Shown piece by piece: positions 40,017 through 48,050 of a stretch of 64,000 bases of DNA. The stretch is taken from contig JABFGG010000006.1 of the NCBI GenBank assembly GCA_013112575.1, positions 62,001 through 126,000 on the forward strand. Reading direction: 5' to 3'. A model generated the notes under the pieces. It was not told the origin of the DNA, did no database searches, and saw only the letters and a program-made list of their open reading frames with translations. How positions within the stretch are numbered: the stretch's first letter is position 1; each line of letters begins with the position of its first letter. Source of the DNA: Chloroflexota bacterium. GTDB taxonomy: Bacteria > Chloroflexota > Anaerolineae > Anaerolineales > UBA11579. A program made the position numbers and the translations under genes.

Positions 40017-41123
40017 TTGCATAATTCATCGGACCCGCATATGCCCTTCTCATTTCCTCCTCTTTGGCAATTTCTGAAACATCGACTACATCATTTTCTC
40101 AAATCACATACCAAACCAGCAACTTCTGCGCATACACGCGGCGCACTCGCGGACCTCACCCGCAGCAAGGCTGACCTGATAATAGAAAACGCGCTGATGC
40201 GCCAGGTCAAACGCCCGCAGTTGACGCCCGGTGATCGCTTCCGTCTGGTGGTGTTGGCAAGCTGGACACCGTTCTGGAAACAGGCGCTTCATATCGTCCA
40301 GCCAGACACCCTACTACGCTGGCACCGAGACCTTTTCGGGCAATAGTGGCGCAGAAGATCCAGGTCAAAAGGAAGGAAGCCGCGCATTGCCCAGGAGACG
40401 ATCGCCTTGATCAAGGAAATGGCCCAAGAGAACCGTACCTGGGGTGCCGAAGGCATCCGAGGAGAGCTGGGCATGCGGGTCAGCAAACGCAGCATCCAAC
40501 GTTATCTCCCCAAGAAGCGCTTGAAATCCAGTCAGAACTGGGCCAACTTCCTGAAAAACCATGCCGGTGAGATTTGGGCCTGCGATTTCACGGTCGTCCA
40601 TGATCTACTCTTTCGCCCCCTCTACATTTTCGTCATCGTCGAGCTGAAAACGCGGCGTATTCTTCATTATGCTGTAACTGCTCATCCCACTGATGCCTGG
40701 ACATCCCAGCAACTGAGAGAAGCCACGCCCTGGGGAAAGGCTCCCAGGTTTCTCATCCATGACCGTGACAGGAAGTTTGGTGCTCTGTTCTCAGCCCTGG
40801 CCGCTGCCTCGAACATCAAGCAGCTGGTGACGCCCTTTCAAGCGCCCAAGGCCAATGCCATTTGCGAACGTTTTATCGGCAGCTTGAAACGCGAGTGTTT
40901 GGACCACATGTTCATCCTGCACCAACGGCATTTACGGAAAGTTGTGGCGGAGTACATGGGCTACTACAATCGCTCAAGACCACATCAGGGTATTCAACAG
41001 CGTATTCCGGCCAGGCTTGAGAACAGCTTCTCGCTCTCCGGCCGGTCAGCAGGCAAAGTCATCACCAGGCCAGTGTTGGGCGGACTGCATCACACTTATG
41101 CTCGGGCAAGCTATGTGAACTAA
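40017..41123 (+). pseudogene. rve/DDE integrase-type transposase with one in-frame TAG
   Basis: ORFs 40017..40346 and 40407..41123 share frame; TAG 40344-40346; WACDFTVVHDLLFRPLYIFVIVELKTRRILH, FLIHDRDRKFG, APKANAICERFIGSLKRECLDH. Confidence 0.85.
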
Positions 41124-42547: not shown

Positions 42548-43144
42548 TCACCGTCCATCAATAAACTCCTGAGCCCAAACGCTATCCAGCCTTTTCGTAA
42601 CCAGCACCCGCAATCCACTGGGGCCCAGGGGCTCTTCATGGTACACGAAATCTATAATGTAAACTGGCACACCATTCATTTTTACTGCCGAAACGCTTTG
42701 CTCTGCTTCCGAGAATTCAGGGTAAATCGAATCAACATACGCCTGTGCCATTCCAACAGCCTCCTCGGACTGAACACCTATAAAAGGGAGCACCGGATCC
42801 AGGCTCTCGGCAAACATATCGCCGATAAAGAACAGAGCATAGACCGCTGCAAATCCAATGGCGAAGCGCGTACCAAACTTCCATAGCAGTGATGGTGTGT
42901 CTTCTTCCTTTTTACTACTTTCGGTTTGCAGAACCACCACTTGAGGAGCCTGGGCTTGTGTTGCTGGTTGTACCTGTTGTACGGCCTGAGTTGGTGGGGC
43001 GGGTGCAGGCGGCGGTGTTGTCGATTCTTGAATTAACTCTTCGGCAGTAGAGTGAGGCTTACCACAATTCGCGCAGAACTTCTTATCGATCTCAACTGGG
43101 CTGCCGCAGTGCATACAGAATTTGGGTTTCTTGTCGTCGCTCAT
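42548..43144 (-). CDS. Zinc-ribbon, single-TM protein
   Basis: FCMHCGSPVEIDKKFCANCGKP; Pro/Gln linker; TM segment. Confidence 0.8.
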   Translation of the reverse strand: MSDDKKPKFCMHCGSPVEIDKKFCANCGKPHSTAEELIQESTTPPPAPAPPTQAVQQVQPATQAQAPQVVVLQTESSKKEEDTPSLLWKFGTRFAIGFAAVYALFFIGDMFAESLDPVLPFIGVQSEEAVGMAQAYVDSIYPEFSEAEQSVSAVKMNGVPVYIIDFVYHEEPLGPSGLRVLVTKRLDSVWAQEFIDGR

Positions 43145-43153
43145 GGTTCCCTC

Positions 43154-44935
43154 TTAAGGCAGGTTGCAGGATGGCGGGGCTTCGCTGCCCGCACTCGGAT
43201 ATTGCAGCTCGCCGCCCATACACGAGCACCATCCTTCATACACGGGATAGGAATCGGGTTCACTGGGGTCGGGTGATGAGGGTTCGCTTCCACAAGCGGG
43301 GCCACCATATTCCACGCCTACGTCGTCTCCACTATCATCTGACCCGCTACTCGAATCGCCACCCGATCCTGTTTCCTCGCCGTTCTCACTGCTGCTGGAT
43401 GCGCTTTCCCCCTCATCTGGTCCGGCTAATTCTGCCCCGGCATCATCATCGTTATCGGGCGGTCCGCCCAGTTCTACACCAGGGGAATTGTCCTGCACCT
43501 GGACCGCACCCGGTAAGTTGATGGCAGTTCCCGCAATCTCACAGTTCTCGCCCGCTGGATACAGAGAAGCCCGCGAGGCGGTCACGTTCACCTGCGGGCC
43601 GGTGCAGATCAAGCGCGTCGCGTCCGTCAGTGTGCTGTTCACCCGCACGAACTGGCATGAAAAAGTCTCTCCTGGTGGGTCTAGCAGGAGCCGGTACTCA
43701 CCAGAATCAAAGGCATCTGCATTGTCAACGAAGATGGATAGTTGACCTTGCAATTGATCACCGCCTGGGTATATCGTCAGGCTGGTAAATTGTTCATCAC
43801 AAGCATCTCCTGATGCAGTTCCATACTCCACGCCAGCACCAAGGTTGCTGTTGAAAATAATGGAGCCTTTAATGATACGCTCTCCAGAGTTATCCAGTTC
43901 GGTCCAGTTGCAATAGCTAAAGTTCGCCCCGCTGCCACAAATATTTGTCGAAAGACCCTGATACGGGCTTTGGCATGGTGTCAGGATATCGTGTGTAGAA
44001 CTCGTTATGTCTCTTAGGCTGAATTTGAGCACATTACTGGTTTCAATCTCAAGTGTTGTCATGGACGCAGGTAATGCCGATGCCGGTAGTGCCGAGGAAG
44101 GCAACGCCGATGAGGGCAGTGCCGACGAAGGCAAAGCAGAGGCGGGTAATGCTTCGGCCGGTATTGCTTCTGCTGGGAGCGCAGACGATGGCAATGCTTC
44201 TGCAGGTATTGCCAGTTGTTTCCCGATCACATTTGATGGTATCGCGCTATCTGGCAACGCGTTGGATGGTATCGCCAGATCATTCATTAGCTGTTTCGCA
44301 CTCGCTGGAAGCGCATTGGAAGGTATTGCGAACTGCGCTTTTACATCCGGCGCGACACTTGCCGGAAGTGCATTGGCAGGAATGGCAGCTCTTGTGATTT
44401 CAAGCAGGTCAACCACTTGCTGCATGTCACTCAGGTAGGTGGGAGATAAACTCGCCAGCGTATTCGGTTCAATGAAGTTCGATGGGATGGCATAGTTCTG
44501 GATAATGACACTGATCACATTTGCAGGGATGGCATTCGATGGAATGGCAGCATTGGGCCTGAAATTGGAAGGTATGTAATTAGACGGGATCGCGTTTGCT
44601 GGGATCGCATTGGAGGGAATCGCATAAGATTGGCCACCCAATTGGATGATGAAGTGGCTTGGAGCATGTGTGGGTCGGCTCACAATATCCGGGCATATTT
44701 TTTCCACGTTGATCGTTTGGATCCCCACTGGGCTTGAGTTGTAGAAATCACTATCATCAGAGTCGGATCGAAAAGGGGAACTGACTGTTTGGACGACCTT
44801 ATTCGTCATTTTGGGTACCGGTGATTTCGGGTGTGTGGCTAACGCCACACCCACACCTAGCGTCCCTGCCACTGCCGTTGTAGCAGCCGCTTTTAGTACC
44901 TTTTTAGGATTTGGTAAAGATACGCCAAATGGCAT
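43154..44935 (-). CDS. A-[IL]-P-[SA]-[NSE] pentapeptide-repeat protein with acidic Ser-rich C-terminal region
   Basis: SYAIPSNAIPANAIPSNYIPSN...AIPAEALPSSALPAEAIPAEALPASALPSSALPSSALPSSALPASALPAS. Confidence 0.85.
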   Translation of the reverse strand: MPFGVSLPNPKKVLKAAATTAVAGTLGVGVALATHPKSPVPKMTNKVVQTVSSPFRSDSDDSDFYNSSPVGIQTINVEKICPDIVSRPTHAPSHFIIQLGGQSYAIPSNAIPANAIPSNYIPSNFRPNAAIPSNAIPANVISVIIQNYAIPSNFIEPNTLASLSPTYLSDMQQVVDLLEITRAAIPANALPASVAPDVKAQFAIPSNALPASAKQLMNDLAIPSNALPDSAIPSNVIGKQLAIPAEALPSSALPAEAIPAEALPASALPSSALPSSALPSSALPASALPASMTTLEIETSNVLKFSLRDITSSTHDILTPCQSPYQGLSTNICGSGANFSYCNWTELDNSGERIIKGSIIFNSNLGAGVEYGTASGDACDEQFTSLTIYPGGDQLQGQLSIFVDNADAFDSGEYRLLLDPPGETFSCQFVRVNSTLTDATRLICTGPQVNVTASRASLYPAGENCEIAGTAINLPGAVQVQDNSPGVELGGPPDNDDDAGAELAGPDEGESASSSSENGEETGSGGDSSSGSDDSGDDVGVEYGGPACGSEPSSPDPSEPDSYPVYEGWCSCMGGELQYPSAGSEAPPSCNLP

Positions 44936-44953
44936 TTTGCACTCCTTTCCAGG

Positions 44954-46042
44954 CTACCTTTCGCAGGCCACGAAATTATCGAAATATACATCACTGCCTG
45001 GCCCGCCTTCCAGTGCCACCCACTTCTTGAATCCAGTGGTTTCAAGGCGGTCTTGGATGACAGTTTCGCCATCGACAAGTATCATGAAGTCCCCGCCGTT
45101 GAAACTCATCTCCACGCTAAGGATATGCCAGCGCTTATCGGGACGTAATCCCATTGACTCGGAAGTAAAAAAATGGTCCTCAATAGCTAAATGGAAACTT
45201 CCTTCTTCGATATATACCGCGAAATGCAGTTTGAATACATTAGGCAGCAAAGCAAATCGCGAGGGATCGCTGGGCGATGCGCTTACGTGTAACAATTTCC
45301 CTCCTGCTTCATAATTCTCGATTACCCAACCTGAGGCCAACCCGCGACCCTCCCGCCAATCGTCGGCTATCCCATCCTCGAAATCCTCGTCGAACATAAC
45401 TTCTCCCGTATCACATTGTGCCCCTGGAGCTTGGCCCGGACCCTCTTCAGTAGCGCCTTGTGCTACCGCTGGTAGATCCTCATTTTGTGGCTCTGTGCCT
45501 GAGCTTGGACGCAGTTGCACGCTAGTGTTCACCCGCGCCTGCGTCATCTTCATTGTTCCCTGCCAGGTCTCGTGATCTGGGTGCGAAACCGTCATTGTGT
45601 AGCTGTTTTGCGGCAGGTCCGGGAAGCGCGCTTCTCCTTGCACATCGGTGTCTGCTTCCTGATCGATGTTCCCAAAATATAGCTGCACCTTCGCATTTGC
45701 CACAGGCTTTCCATCAGCGTCGCTCACCATTACCAGTAAACGCGCTCCTTCAAATGTTGCGACTGGTGTCGTGACTGGGACGCTGGCCAGTTGTGGTATA
45801 TACAACACATTTTCCGCAAATAGCAGTCCGGTCAAGCCTGCTGGGATCAGTATGCCCAGGAAGATCCAAATCCAGCCTGGCAGGCGGCGTCGTTTTCTTC
45901 TAGCTTTGGTCTCCGCTGTTTCAGCAGGTGTCGCCTCGACTTTTGAGACATCTTCCGCAACCTCATTGGCGAAATTGTGACCGCAATGCGTACAGTATTT
46001 GCTACCTTGGCTGATCTCAGAACTACAATTTGAACAGTGCAT
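44954..46042 (-). CDS. Zinc-ribbon/TM protein with carboxypeptidase-regulatory-like domain and C-terminal beta-rich domain
   Basis: CSNCSSEISQGSKYCTHCGH; TM; GARLLVMVSDADGKPVANAKVQLYFGNIDQEADTDVQGEARFPDLPQNSYTMTVSHPDHET; VMFDEDFEDGIADDWREGRG. Confidence 0.8.
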   Translation of the reverse strand: MHCSNCSSEISQGSKYCTHCGHNFANEVAEDVSKVEATPAETAETKARRKRRRLPGWIWIFLGILIPAGLTGLLFAENVLYIPQLASVPVTTPVATFEGARLLVMVSDADGKPVANAKVQLYFGNIDQEADTDVQGEARFPDLPQNSYTMTVSHPDHETWQGTMKMTQARVNTSVQLRPSSGTEPQNEDLPAVAQGATEEGPGQAPGAQCDTGEVMFDEDFEDGIADDWREGRGLASGWVIENYEAGGKLLHVSASPSDPSRFALLPNVFKLHFAVYIEEGSFHLAIEDHFFTSESMGLRPDKRWHILSVEMSFNGGDFMILVDGETVIQDRLETTGFKKWVALEGGPGSDVYFDNFVACER

Positions 46043-46063: not shown

Positions 46064-47890
46064 CTATGGGCAATTATTCCAACAACCGGCTTCACTATCT
46101 CCTGGCAAGGTGCACCAGTAACCGTCAGTGCAGCAGCCTCCTGACCACCACACCGTCGGGCCATGGTACGATTCACCTGCCGGGCAGGCTAGCTCTTGGC
46201 CAGCTTCAGGTTCACGTGGTGGCTTCCTAGTCGGTGTGACGGTGGGTTCGAATGTGCGTAAGCCCAGCGGGGATTGGGCATGTAGTAGAGGGTCCGAGCA
46301 ACCGTTTACAAACAGGTCAATGGACAAGGTGCCGGCCTGGTTTAATCCTGGCAGCAGTTTACAATAAAGTTGATTTTCCTCGGCCGCGGGATCCTGGTAG
46401 CAATCCTCAAATGTGGGGACGGTCGCCCCATTTATAGTGGCTTCTACAGAATAATCATCCGGGCCAGTGGAACTGGGGATCCCACCTCCAAATGAGAAGC
46501 GTAGGTCAAATGGGGAAGAAGGCACCTGATATGGAAAACCTTCATAATAGCCTGAAACAAGGCTGATTTTCCCCTGGCCGAACTCTGGTAATGAACATAC
46601 ATTATCAGTTTGCTCACCACTCTCTTGTTCTGGGTTTGGATTATCCTGTGCAAGAGTCTCATCAAGCAAGATGGTACGAGTTTCGACACATGCAGAATTT
46701 TCAGCCGTGAGGATGAAGCCGGTTATGCCGCCACCGCCATTATATGGACACCATACTTCATTACAATCAGCCTCTGAGCACGGTGGCGAGCATTCATAAT
46801 TAAGTGATAGACTGTCAGTGTAATAATAAACTGAGAACGAGGCTTCTGGATCTCCTTCCAATCCTGTAAAAACTAATTGGTCGATATTTTCGTATTCCTG
46901 GTTATTGATTGCTTCGCGGATACTCTCTTCGAGTTCCAGACTTTGAATGCCTCCACAGAAACCACCGAAAGCAGGTTGGCCGTCGGCTTGGATGACCTTG
47001 GCCAAAGAAGCATCTTGAGCATTTTCGATTTCGATTTGGTCCGTTGCTAATACGCAGCCAGAATCCTCTCCATATTTCAATTCGATATTGATGACCGCAC
47101 TCTCTTCAACAAGCAAATCAAGATCTTCTGGCTCGTTTGTGTTCAGGAACTGGTAGGGTGTCTTGCAAACCACCTGGTGATCTCTGAACGGCTCAACTTC
47201 ACACTCATAAATGCCATTGAATTCGGATGAAGCGATTTCATTTCCAGTTTGTTGATCGCCCACAGAATAGCTTAGCAAATAAGTATCTGATTGATCCAGT
47301 GCGATATCTGCGCTTGCACCTTGAAAATCAAACATCCACCAGAGCATGATTTCGCCACTTTGGGCATCAAATTCCTGCAGCCCAAAGAAATAAGTCTCCC
47401 CATTTGGACTTATCCAATCCCCCTGGGGCCCGCAAAAGGCGGCTGCCCCACCGGGTTCATTCCCTCCACCATCACCATTCCTATTATTTGCATTGTCCAA
47501 GTCCTGCTGCCAGGCAGCCAACTGGTTGATCGTATTGGCCAAAAAAGGTGGAAGTTGACTGTTTGCCGGAACGGGCGAAACCTGGATTACTTGTGTGGTG
47601 GTGCCGCACACCAGCAAGCCTAAGACTAGAACCAGTCCCAAAAGGAACCATAGCCAGCCACGGCTCTTTTTCTCCTCTTCCCCTTCTTCGCCCTGCTGTA
47701 CTACCACGACAGTGGGTGGGCTAGCTGGAGATTGTGCGGTCGCTTCAGCGACAGGGGTTTCTTGCTTCTGCGATTGAGTTTGCGGTACCGGCATCGGCTG
47801 TCCGCAATTTTGGCAGAATTTTGCGCCTGGTGGGTTTTGGGTTCCGCATTCAGGGCAAAACAAACCCTTATGAACTGGGCTCTCGCTCAC
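46064..47890 (-). CDS. Zinc-ribbon/TM protein with large Cys-containing extracytoplasmic region
   Basis: FCPECGTQNPPGAKFCQNCGQPMP; TM WLWFLLGLVLVLGLLVCG; Cys-rich C-terminus CCTDGYWCTLPGDSEAGCWNNCP. Confidence 0.8.
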   Translation of the reverse strand: MSESPVHKGLFCPECGTQNPPGAKFCQNCGQPMPVPQTQSQKQETPVAEATAQSPASPPTVVVVQQGEEGEEEKKSRGWLWFLLGLVLVLGLLVCGTTTQVIQVSPVPANSQLPPFLANTINQLAAWQQDLDNANNRNGDGGGNEPGGAAAFCGPQGDWISPNGETYFFGLQEFDAQSGEIMLWWMFDFQGASADIALDQSDTYLLSYSVGDQQTGNEIASSEFNGIYECEVEPFRDHQVVCKTPYQFLNTNEPEDLDLLVEESAVINIELKYGEDSGCVLATDQIEIENAQDASLAKVIQADGQPAFGGFCGGIQSLELEESIREAINNQEYENIDQLVFTGLEGDPEASFSVYYYTDSLSLNYECSPPCSEADCNEVWCPYNGGGGITGFILTAENSACVETRTILLDETLAQDNPNPEQESGEQTDNVCSLPEFGQGKISLVSGYYEGFPYQVPSSPFDLRFSFGGGIPSSTGPDDYSVEATINGATVPTFEDCYQDPAAEENQLYCKLLPGLNQAGTLSIDLFVNGCSDPLLHAQSPLGLRTFEPTVTPTRKPPREPEAGQELACPAGESYHGPTVWWSGGCCTDGYWCTLPGDSEAGCWNNCP

Positions 47891-48050
47891 AATAATTCCT
47901 CCTTAGGATGCTTACTGCGTTGTTTGAAAATTATAGAACAAAAAAAATTTATGCCCAACTAATATCCGGCACTTTCCACTTACAATTAAGTTAGGAGAAT
48001 TTTGGCACCCTCACTTCCATATAGGAACCGCTACTATATTCCCAGGTAGT

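Follow-up and report, generated by a model that had tools for sequence, protein, structure and literature searches.

A proline-phased pentapeptide array, apparently undescribed, in predicted surface proteins of Anaerolineae and other bacteria

The window, a stretch of 64,000 nucleotides of Anaerolineales DNA, holds between positions 42548 and 47890 what is probably a four-gene operon of membrane-anchored surface proteins, the third gene of which encodes an array of proline-containing pentapeptides (Table 1). The four genes lie on the same strand with gaps of 21, 18 and 9 nt, and the array gene has its Shine-Dalgarno sequence 6 nt upstream of the ATG. Before the first gene there is a promoter-like site (47930-47957), of a kind no commoner than chance. 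Three of the four gene products have, in this order, an N-terminal zinc ribbon of cytosolic type, a single transmembrane (TM) helix and an ectodomain; array genes of other Anaerolineae (L030, L063 and L064) also lie among similar zinc-ribbon TM genes. The ectodomain of the first gene resembles the C-termini of the relatives' array proteins (L063 and L030). Near the operon, at 40017-41123, are fragments of transposase that include an integrase core (rve), and an antisense open reading frame at 44007-44438 was taken as a by-product of the codon pattern.

Table 1 Features of the array locus, in window coordinates.
Feature	Position	Strand	Remarks
First operon gene: zinc ribbon, TM, Cys-rich ectodomain	46064..47890	(-)	
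Upstream operon gene: zinc ribbon, TM, carboxypeptidase-regulatory-like domain	44954..46042	(-)	18 nt before array gene
Array protein gene, 593 aa	43154..44935	(-)	Intact ORF, ATG start, Shine-Dalgarno AGGAG at 44942-44946
N-terminal basic and hydrophobic segment, KKVLKAAATTAVAGTLGVGVALATH	44834..44902	(-)	Predicted signal peptide or membrane anchor, read by eye
Beta-hairpin-like lead-in IIQLGGQSY, immediately before first pentad	44624..44653	(-)	Position and G..Y|AIPSN pattern alike in relatives
Pentad array, 24 [AY][IL]P[SAD][NSE] units and spacers, residues 105-291	44063..44623	(-)	
Ten uninterrupted pentads AIPAE ALPSS ALPAE AIPAE ALPAS ALPSS ALPSS ALPSS ALPAS ALPAS, residues 242-291	44063..44212	(-)	
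C-terminal Cys-containing beta-sandwich-like domain	43523..43942	(-)	From alignment with other Anaerolineae array proteins, which share the domain
Partner gene: zinc ribbon, one TM helix, ectodomain of about 85 aa	42548..43144	(-)	Begins 9 nt after array gene

The array protein is predicted to be exported and membrane-anchored, with signal peptides, membrane anchors and lipoboxes assigned by eye throughout, and the N-termini of its relatives (MGWFKKVVKK...VVGVVAGAIGGAFASS) have the same layout. The initial annotation had described an A-[IL]-P-[SA]-[NSE] array of about 25 pentads; we counted 24, the final ten of them uninterrupted, in an intact reading frame. These are AIPSN (7), ALPAS (5), ALPSS (4), AIPAN (3), AIPAE (2), ALPAE (1), ALPDS (1) and YIPSN (1), interrupted by spacers of 5, 9, 30, 9, 8 and 6 residues. 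When the protein was shuffled 300 times, at most 2 pentads arose, compared with the 23 strict pentads observed. In the AF2 model of the window protein the lead-in is a hairpin, at low confidence, and the C-terminal domain has strands at residues 332-471, with a block at pLDDT up to 76. A second short motif, G-[VA]-E-[LY]-[GA]-G-P-like, recurs in Anaerolineae array proteins (L067, L063 and the C-terminal part of the window protein); its copies in the window protein are AGVEYG, PGVELGGP, AGAELAGP and VGVEYGGP. A protein that is predicted to be exported and repeats one short peptide many times, almost unchanged, might also be a source of short peptides released from it, or a substrate cut by a protease at many sites. 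We regard this as highly unlikely, since no flanking cleavage motifs were seen, the pentads run head to tail within a multi-domain protein and the four-gene operon contains no peptidase domain in Pfam.

Next, we compared the array with known repeat families. The array protein had no Pfam family at E≤1 and a single, insignificant NCBIfam match (E 0.13), PDB sequence searches were empty or insignificant, and literature searches by pentad words and by topic returned no paper describing it. The repeat is thus apparently undescribed, matching no Pfam, NCBIfam or PDB family. The pentapeptide repeat PF00805 (A[DN]LXX, a quadrilateral beta-helix) shares the five-residue period and the small and hydrophobic positions, but the window array has an invariant proline at position 3, lacks the A[DN]L core and does not match in Pfam at E≤1; nor did any relative give a PF00805-type match. 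This agrees with the earlier proposal of a surface-type repeat apart from the classical family, the protein being predicted exported and membrane-anchored. The array may also form an extended surface fibre, as that proposal suggested. The likeness to elastin or collagen suggested at the same time was not borne out: VPGXG and GXY are also short-period and contain proline, but the pentads have no Gly, neither pattern occurs in the array, and the period or order differs. The PE/PPE-MPTR repeats of mycobacteria are of an Asn/Gly type. These pentapeptide-2 repeats (PMC4858275) likewise form long pentapeptide arrays in bacterial proteins; neither the window protein nor its relatives matched them in Pfam. 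Among PDB sequences the array consensus came closest, although insignificantly (E 0.71), to pertactin, a surface protein whose GGXXP repeat also places a proline every five residues; pertactin has Gly-Gly where the array has [SA][NSE], its copies are few, and we do not claim homology. The 3-10 turn motif of SH3 domains is [IVF]-P-[SA]-N-Y. The array resembles it in the local sequence I-P-S-N and in a similar predicted short turn, but the SH3 motif is single and lies in a barrel rather than an array, and Pfam gave no SH3 match for the array protein.

At the DNA level, the array could be a product of slippage, that is, a VNTR with phase-variable length. The gene had been annotated as carrying 15-bp DNA repeats; the 15-bp period stands, but the copies all differ, the 24 pentads being encoded by 24 distinct 15-mers. 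Codon identity at the same residue between window pentads was 0.287; codons drawn at random according to the codon usage of the gene itself gave 0.272 ± 0.019. Adjacent window pentads also stood at random codon identity (0.321 versus 0.265 ± 0.060, within one standard deviation), which contradicts slippage for the window, and Tandem Repeats Finder reported only two weak, overlapping arrays with 72-76% matches there. The near-identical DNA copies of a VNTR are therefore lacking in the window array, whose random synonymous codons exclude recent slippage. Codon sharing between adjacent pentads was likewise not above random in L063b, L064, L065, L106 and L111. On the other side, adjacent pentads in L066, L067 and L058b shared 0.71-0.73 of their codons against an expected 0.34-0.40, the result of recent tandem duplication, and the third array differs in length between the sister loci L117 and L119 (17 versus 13 pentads). 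Over longer periods arrays do change in length by duplication, and the array was likely born by duplication and then held by long selection on the peptide. Of the earlier proposal that length varies by slippage, the variation thus survives between relatives, some of them with recent tandem duplication, whereas slippage fails for the window, where the codons are scrambled, the array residues being under selection in relatives. We consider slippage a very improbable account of the repeat.

Selection was examined in four pairs of relatives, the window gene having none close enough for this comparison. For L117/L119, a pair of sister loci, dN was 0.016 in the array and 0.105 in the flanks, with dS of 0.458 and 0.476, respectively. 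An array dN about six times below that of the flanks at equal synonymous divergence indicates that selection acts on the peptide. In the three other pairs, array dN was about 3-4 times below flank dN by the same simple counting method, with dS saturated in some pairs and an uncertain repeat register in the MAFFT alignment, a problem that weighs least on the close pair L117/L119. The array is a real protein-level repeat under strong purifying selection. These data bear on the possibility that it is a flexible Pro/Ala/Ser-rich linker without a sequence-specific role. Pro, Ala and Ser are typical of disordered secreted linkers, and both this composition and the low AF2 confidence (below) would suit such a linker. 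However, the weak amino acid constraint relative to the flanks expected of an unconstrained linker was not seen in any of the four pairs, and an array dN about 3-6 times below the flanks largely contradicts the idea. Every residue position is fixed, and uniform pentads are written with different codons, as in L064, where 27 AIPAS pentads occur in 24 DNA versions. We therefore judge a plain linker improbable.

The pentads also follow a vocabulary. Over 15 array proteins the commonest were AIPSN (85), ALPAS (57), AIPAS (48), AIPAN (26), AIPAE (14) and ALPSS (14). In 27 array proteins (those other than L064, L065 and L116), we found AIPx[NE] 147 times, AIPxS 0 times, ALPxS 127 times and ALPx[NE] 31 times, so that Ile goes with Asn or Glu at position 5 and Leu mostly with Ser. 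This coupling was evident inside single proteins (P=2e-5 in the window protein, 2e-6 in L117 and 2.7e-6 in L118), while P values pooled over proteins are not to be taken literally because pentads are not independent. The rule is partial, since L064 and L065 break it with AIPAS throughout and ALPxN is common in several deltaproteobacterial array proteins.

To find relatives, we scanned 85,462 species genomes with a degenerate pattern and obtained 33 stretches; the scan needed three consecutive AIP pentads, so all-Leu arrays are under-counted. Array proteins were found in Anaerolineae/Chloroflexota (two in L058, two in L063, L067, L068 and, of another type, L064), Actinomycetota (L048, L052, L053 and L066), a deltaproteobacterium (L043 and L057) and an unplaced bacterium (L065). 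Proteins with the same vocabulary are thus sparse and occur in at least three bacterial groups. Among 200 sampled genomes of the window's order, four had a homologous array protein and one more (G195) a LysM-associated type. A real array was confined to G479 itself among 249 genomes of the order around it, and to the genome of the window among 399 sampled across the phylum. In the searched genome of the window the only real array was the window locus, with two further weak matches (E 0.25 and 0.62). A whole-protein search of genome contigs gave no close relative, and no array was found in a viral collection by pattern search or in plasmids and phages by tblastn with the low-complexity filter on. 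Outside the array, homology between bacterial groups received no support from hhalign, which aligned the lead-in regions at E 0.36 from shallow alignments. The shared vocabulary may reflect common origin, transfer or convergence.

The relatives combine the array with an N-terminal anchor or lipobox, as assigned by eye. The deltaproteobacterium G481 has 16 different proteins with at least 4 pentads; 15 of the 16 carry a lipobox-like Cys (by eye), the other having no N-terminus in the open frame, and those C-terminal domains that were scanned are of different kinds (FGE-sulfatase, FG-GAP). Two of the actinobacterial relatives have PASTA domains, and L064 has a borderline LysM. Together, the N-terminal anchors, lipobox-like Cys, PASTA and borderline LysM point to the envelope or cell wall. 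In G481 (L100-L114) the array often immediately precedes a [WFY][FWL]L strand-like segment. One actinomycetotal protein of 1094 aa (L116:3450-6731) has 39 pentads, nearly all ALPSS, and a PASTA domain. The 1117-aa AIPAS protein (L064:4377-7727) has many hydrophobic spacers of 7 or 12 residues between pentads, and tandem DILNRD hexapeptides in two blocks. On reading, several candidates proved to be different low-complexity repeats: L029 and L036 (PTTAV/PATAV type), L032 (LPSGS), L153-L154 (VPxDA/VPRDA type) and array-like matches in G555, G578, G603 and G655. Single-match pattern hits, for example AIPAR, AIPAT and AIPSK, were discarded as unrelated or in the wrong frame.

Short repeats are commonly written off as low-complexity linkers or slippage products. 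Scrambled DNA, a peptide that in relatives, across several bacterial groups, is more tightly kept than the rest of the protein, and two co-varying positions are instead the signature of a particular structure or binding code, one described in none of the searched libraries. On our best reading, to which we give a probability of about 0.42, the protein is anchored in the membrane, belongs to the surface or wall, and carries its pentads as a stalk of regularly repeated short turns. One pentad would correspond to one short turn opened by proline (P-[SA]-[NSE]-A), Ile or Leu would pack between successive turns, and the resulting stalk or spacer, regular and adjustable in length, would separate the membrane from the outer domain. 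This is supported by the randomised codons with a kept peptide, the low array dN and the I/L coupling, and also by the vocabulary common to several groups, the place of the array between strand-like segments in most relatives and the linkage to a partner gene (below). At low confidence, both AF2 models assign a helical turn of three residues to [SA][NS]A in many pentads, which agrees with the SH3 I-P-S-N-Y likeness, although this is only a hint; in the window model the ten-pentad uninterrupted block had no assignment. AF2 gave a mean pLDDT of 42.7 for the window protein (7 sequences) and 35.9 for the actinobacterial L066 array region (3 sequences). Within the arrays confidence was 25-45 pLDDT, at which no fold is supported, disorder is possible and no beta-helix was predicted. 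This range, an empty Foldseek search (nothing at E≤0.001) and the cross-group hhalign E of 0.36 speak against the stalk, and spacers of 5, 6, 8, 9 and 30 residues break the register that a regular one would keep. A stronger form, in which the array is a new solenoid or rod of single proline-started turns, with positions 2 and 5 coupled by a packing rule, and serves as an envelope stalk module common to distant bacteria, appears doubtful; should the array fold into a regular rod, it would represent a new and simple protein repeat.

The gene downstream of the array gene encodes a possible partner, whose ectodomain, at 42551-42817, had no credible Pfam match. A profile of this ectodomain matched in five of 200 genomes of the window's order, namely the four with a homologous array protein and G033, so that the partner gene is present in 4/4 genomes with such a protein and in 1/196 others. 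Within the order, each homologous array gene has it as a neighbour; G017 has two partner copies and two array genes, and in L027/L058 and L063 the array and partner genes form two tandem pairs. The array protein would work with this neighbouring zinc-ribbon TM partner, and the two may interact physically. The linkage also suits a multivalent docking array, in which a disordered tail would display the pentads as short linear motifs and each of them would be bound by a partner such as the partner ectodomain, a logic comparable by analogy to that of the RNA polymerase II CTD heptads. The short fixed vocabulary with randomised codons and the low AF2 confidence are consistent with docking, and the 16 array proteins of G481 resemble carriers of a shared address tag; in that case the linked zinc-ribbon partner would be a candidate reader. 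However, the search for the partner ectodomain covered the window's order, no relative of it appeared next to the array gene of the actinobacterial L117, and the coupling of I/L to position 5 and the place between strand-like segments fit folding better. We favour the stalk of short turns; docking comes second and is somewhat unlikely. In G033 (L159:6822-9680), the partner homologue is followed by a gene for an MGFWKK-type surface protein that is split by a transposase gene and has no visible pentad array, its C-terminal domain lying beyond the insertion. In the actinomycetotal L118, a zinc-ribbon gene lies directly upstream of the array gene, but it has several TM segments.
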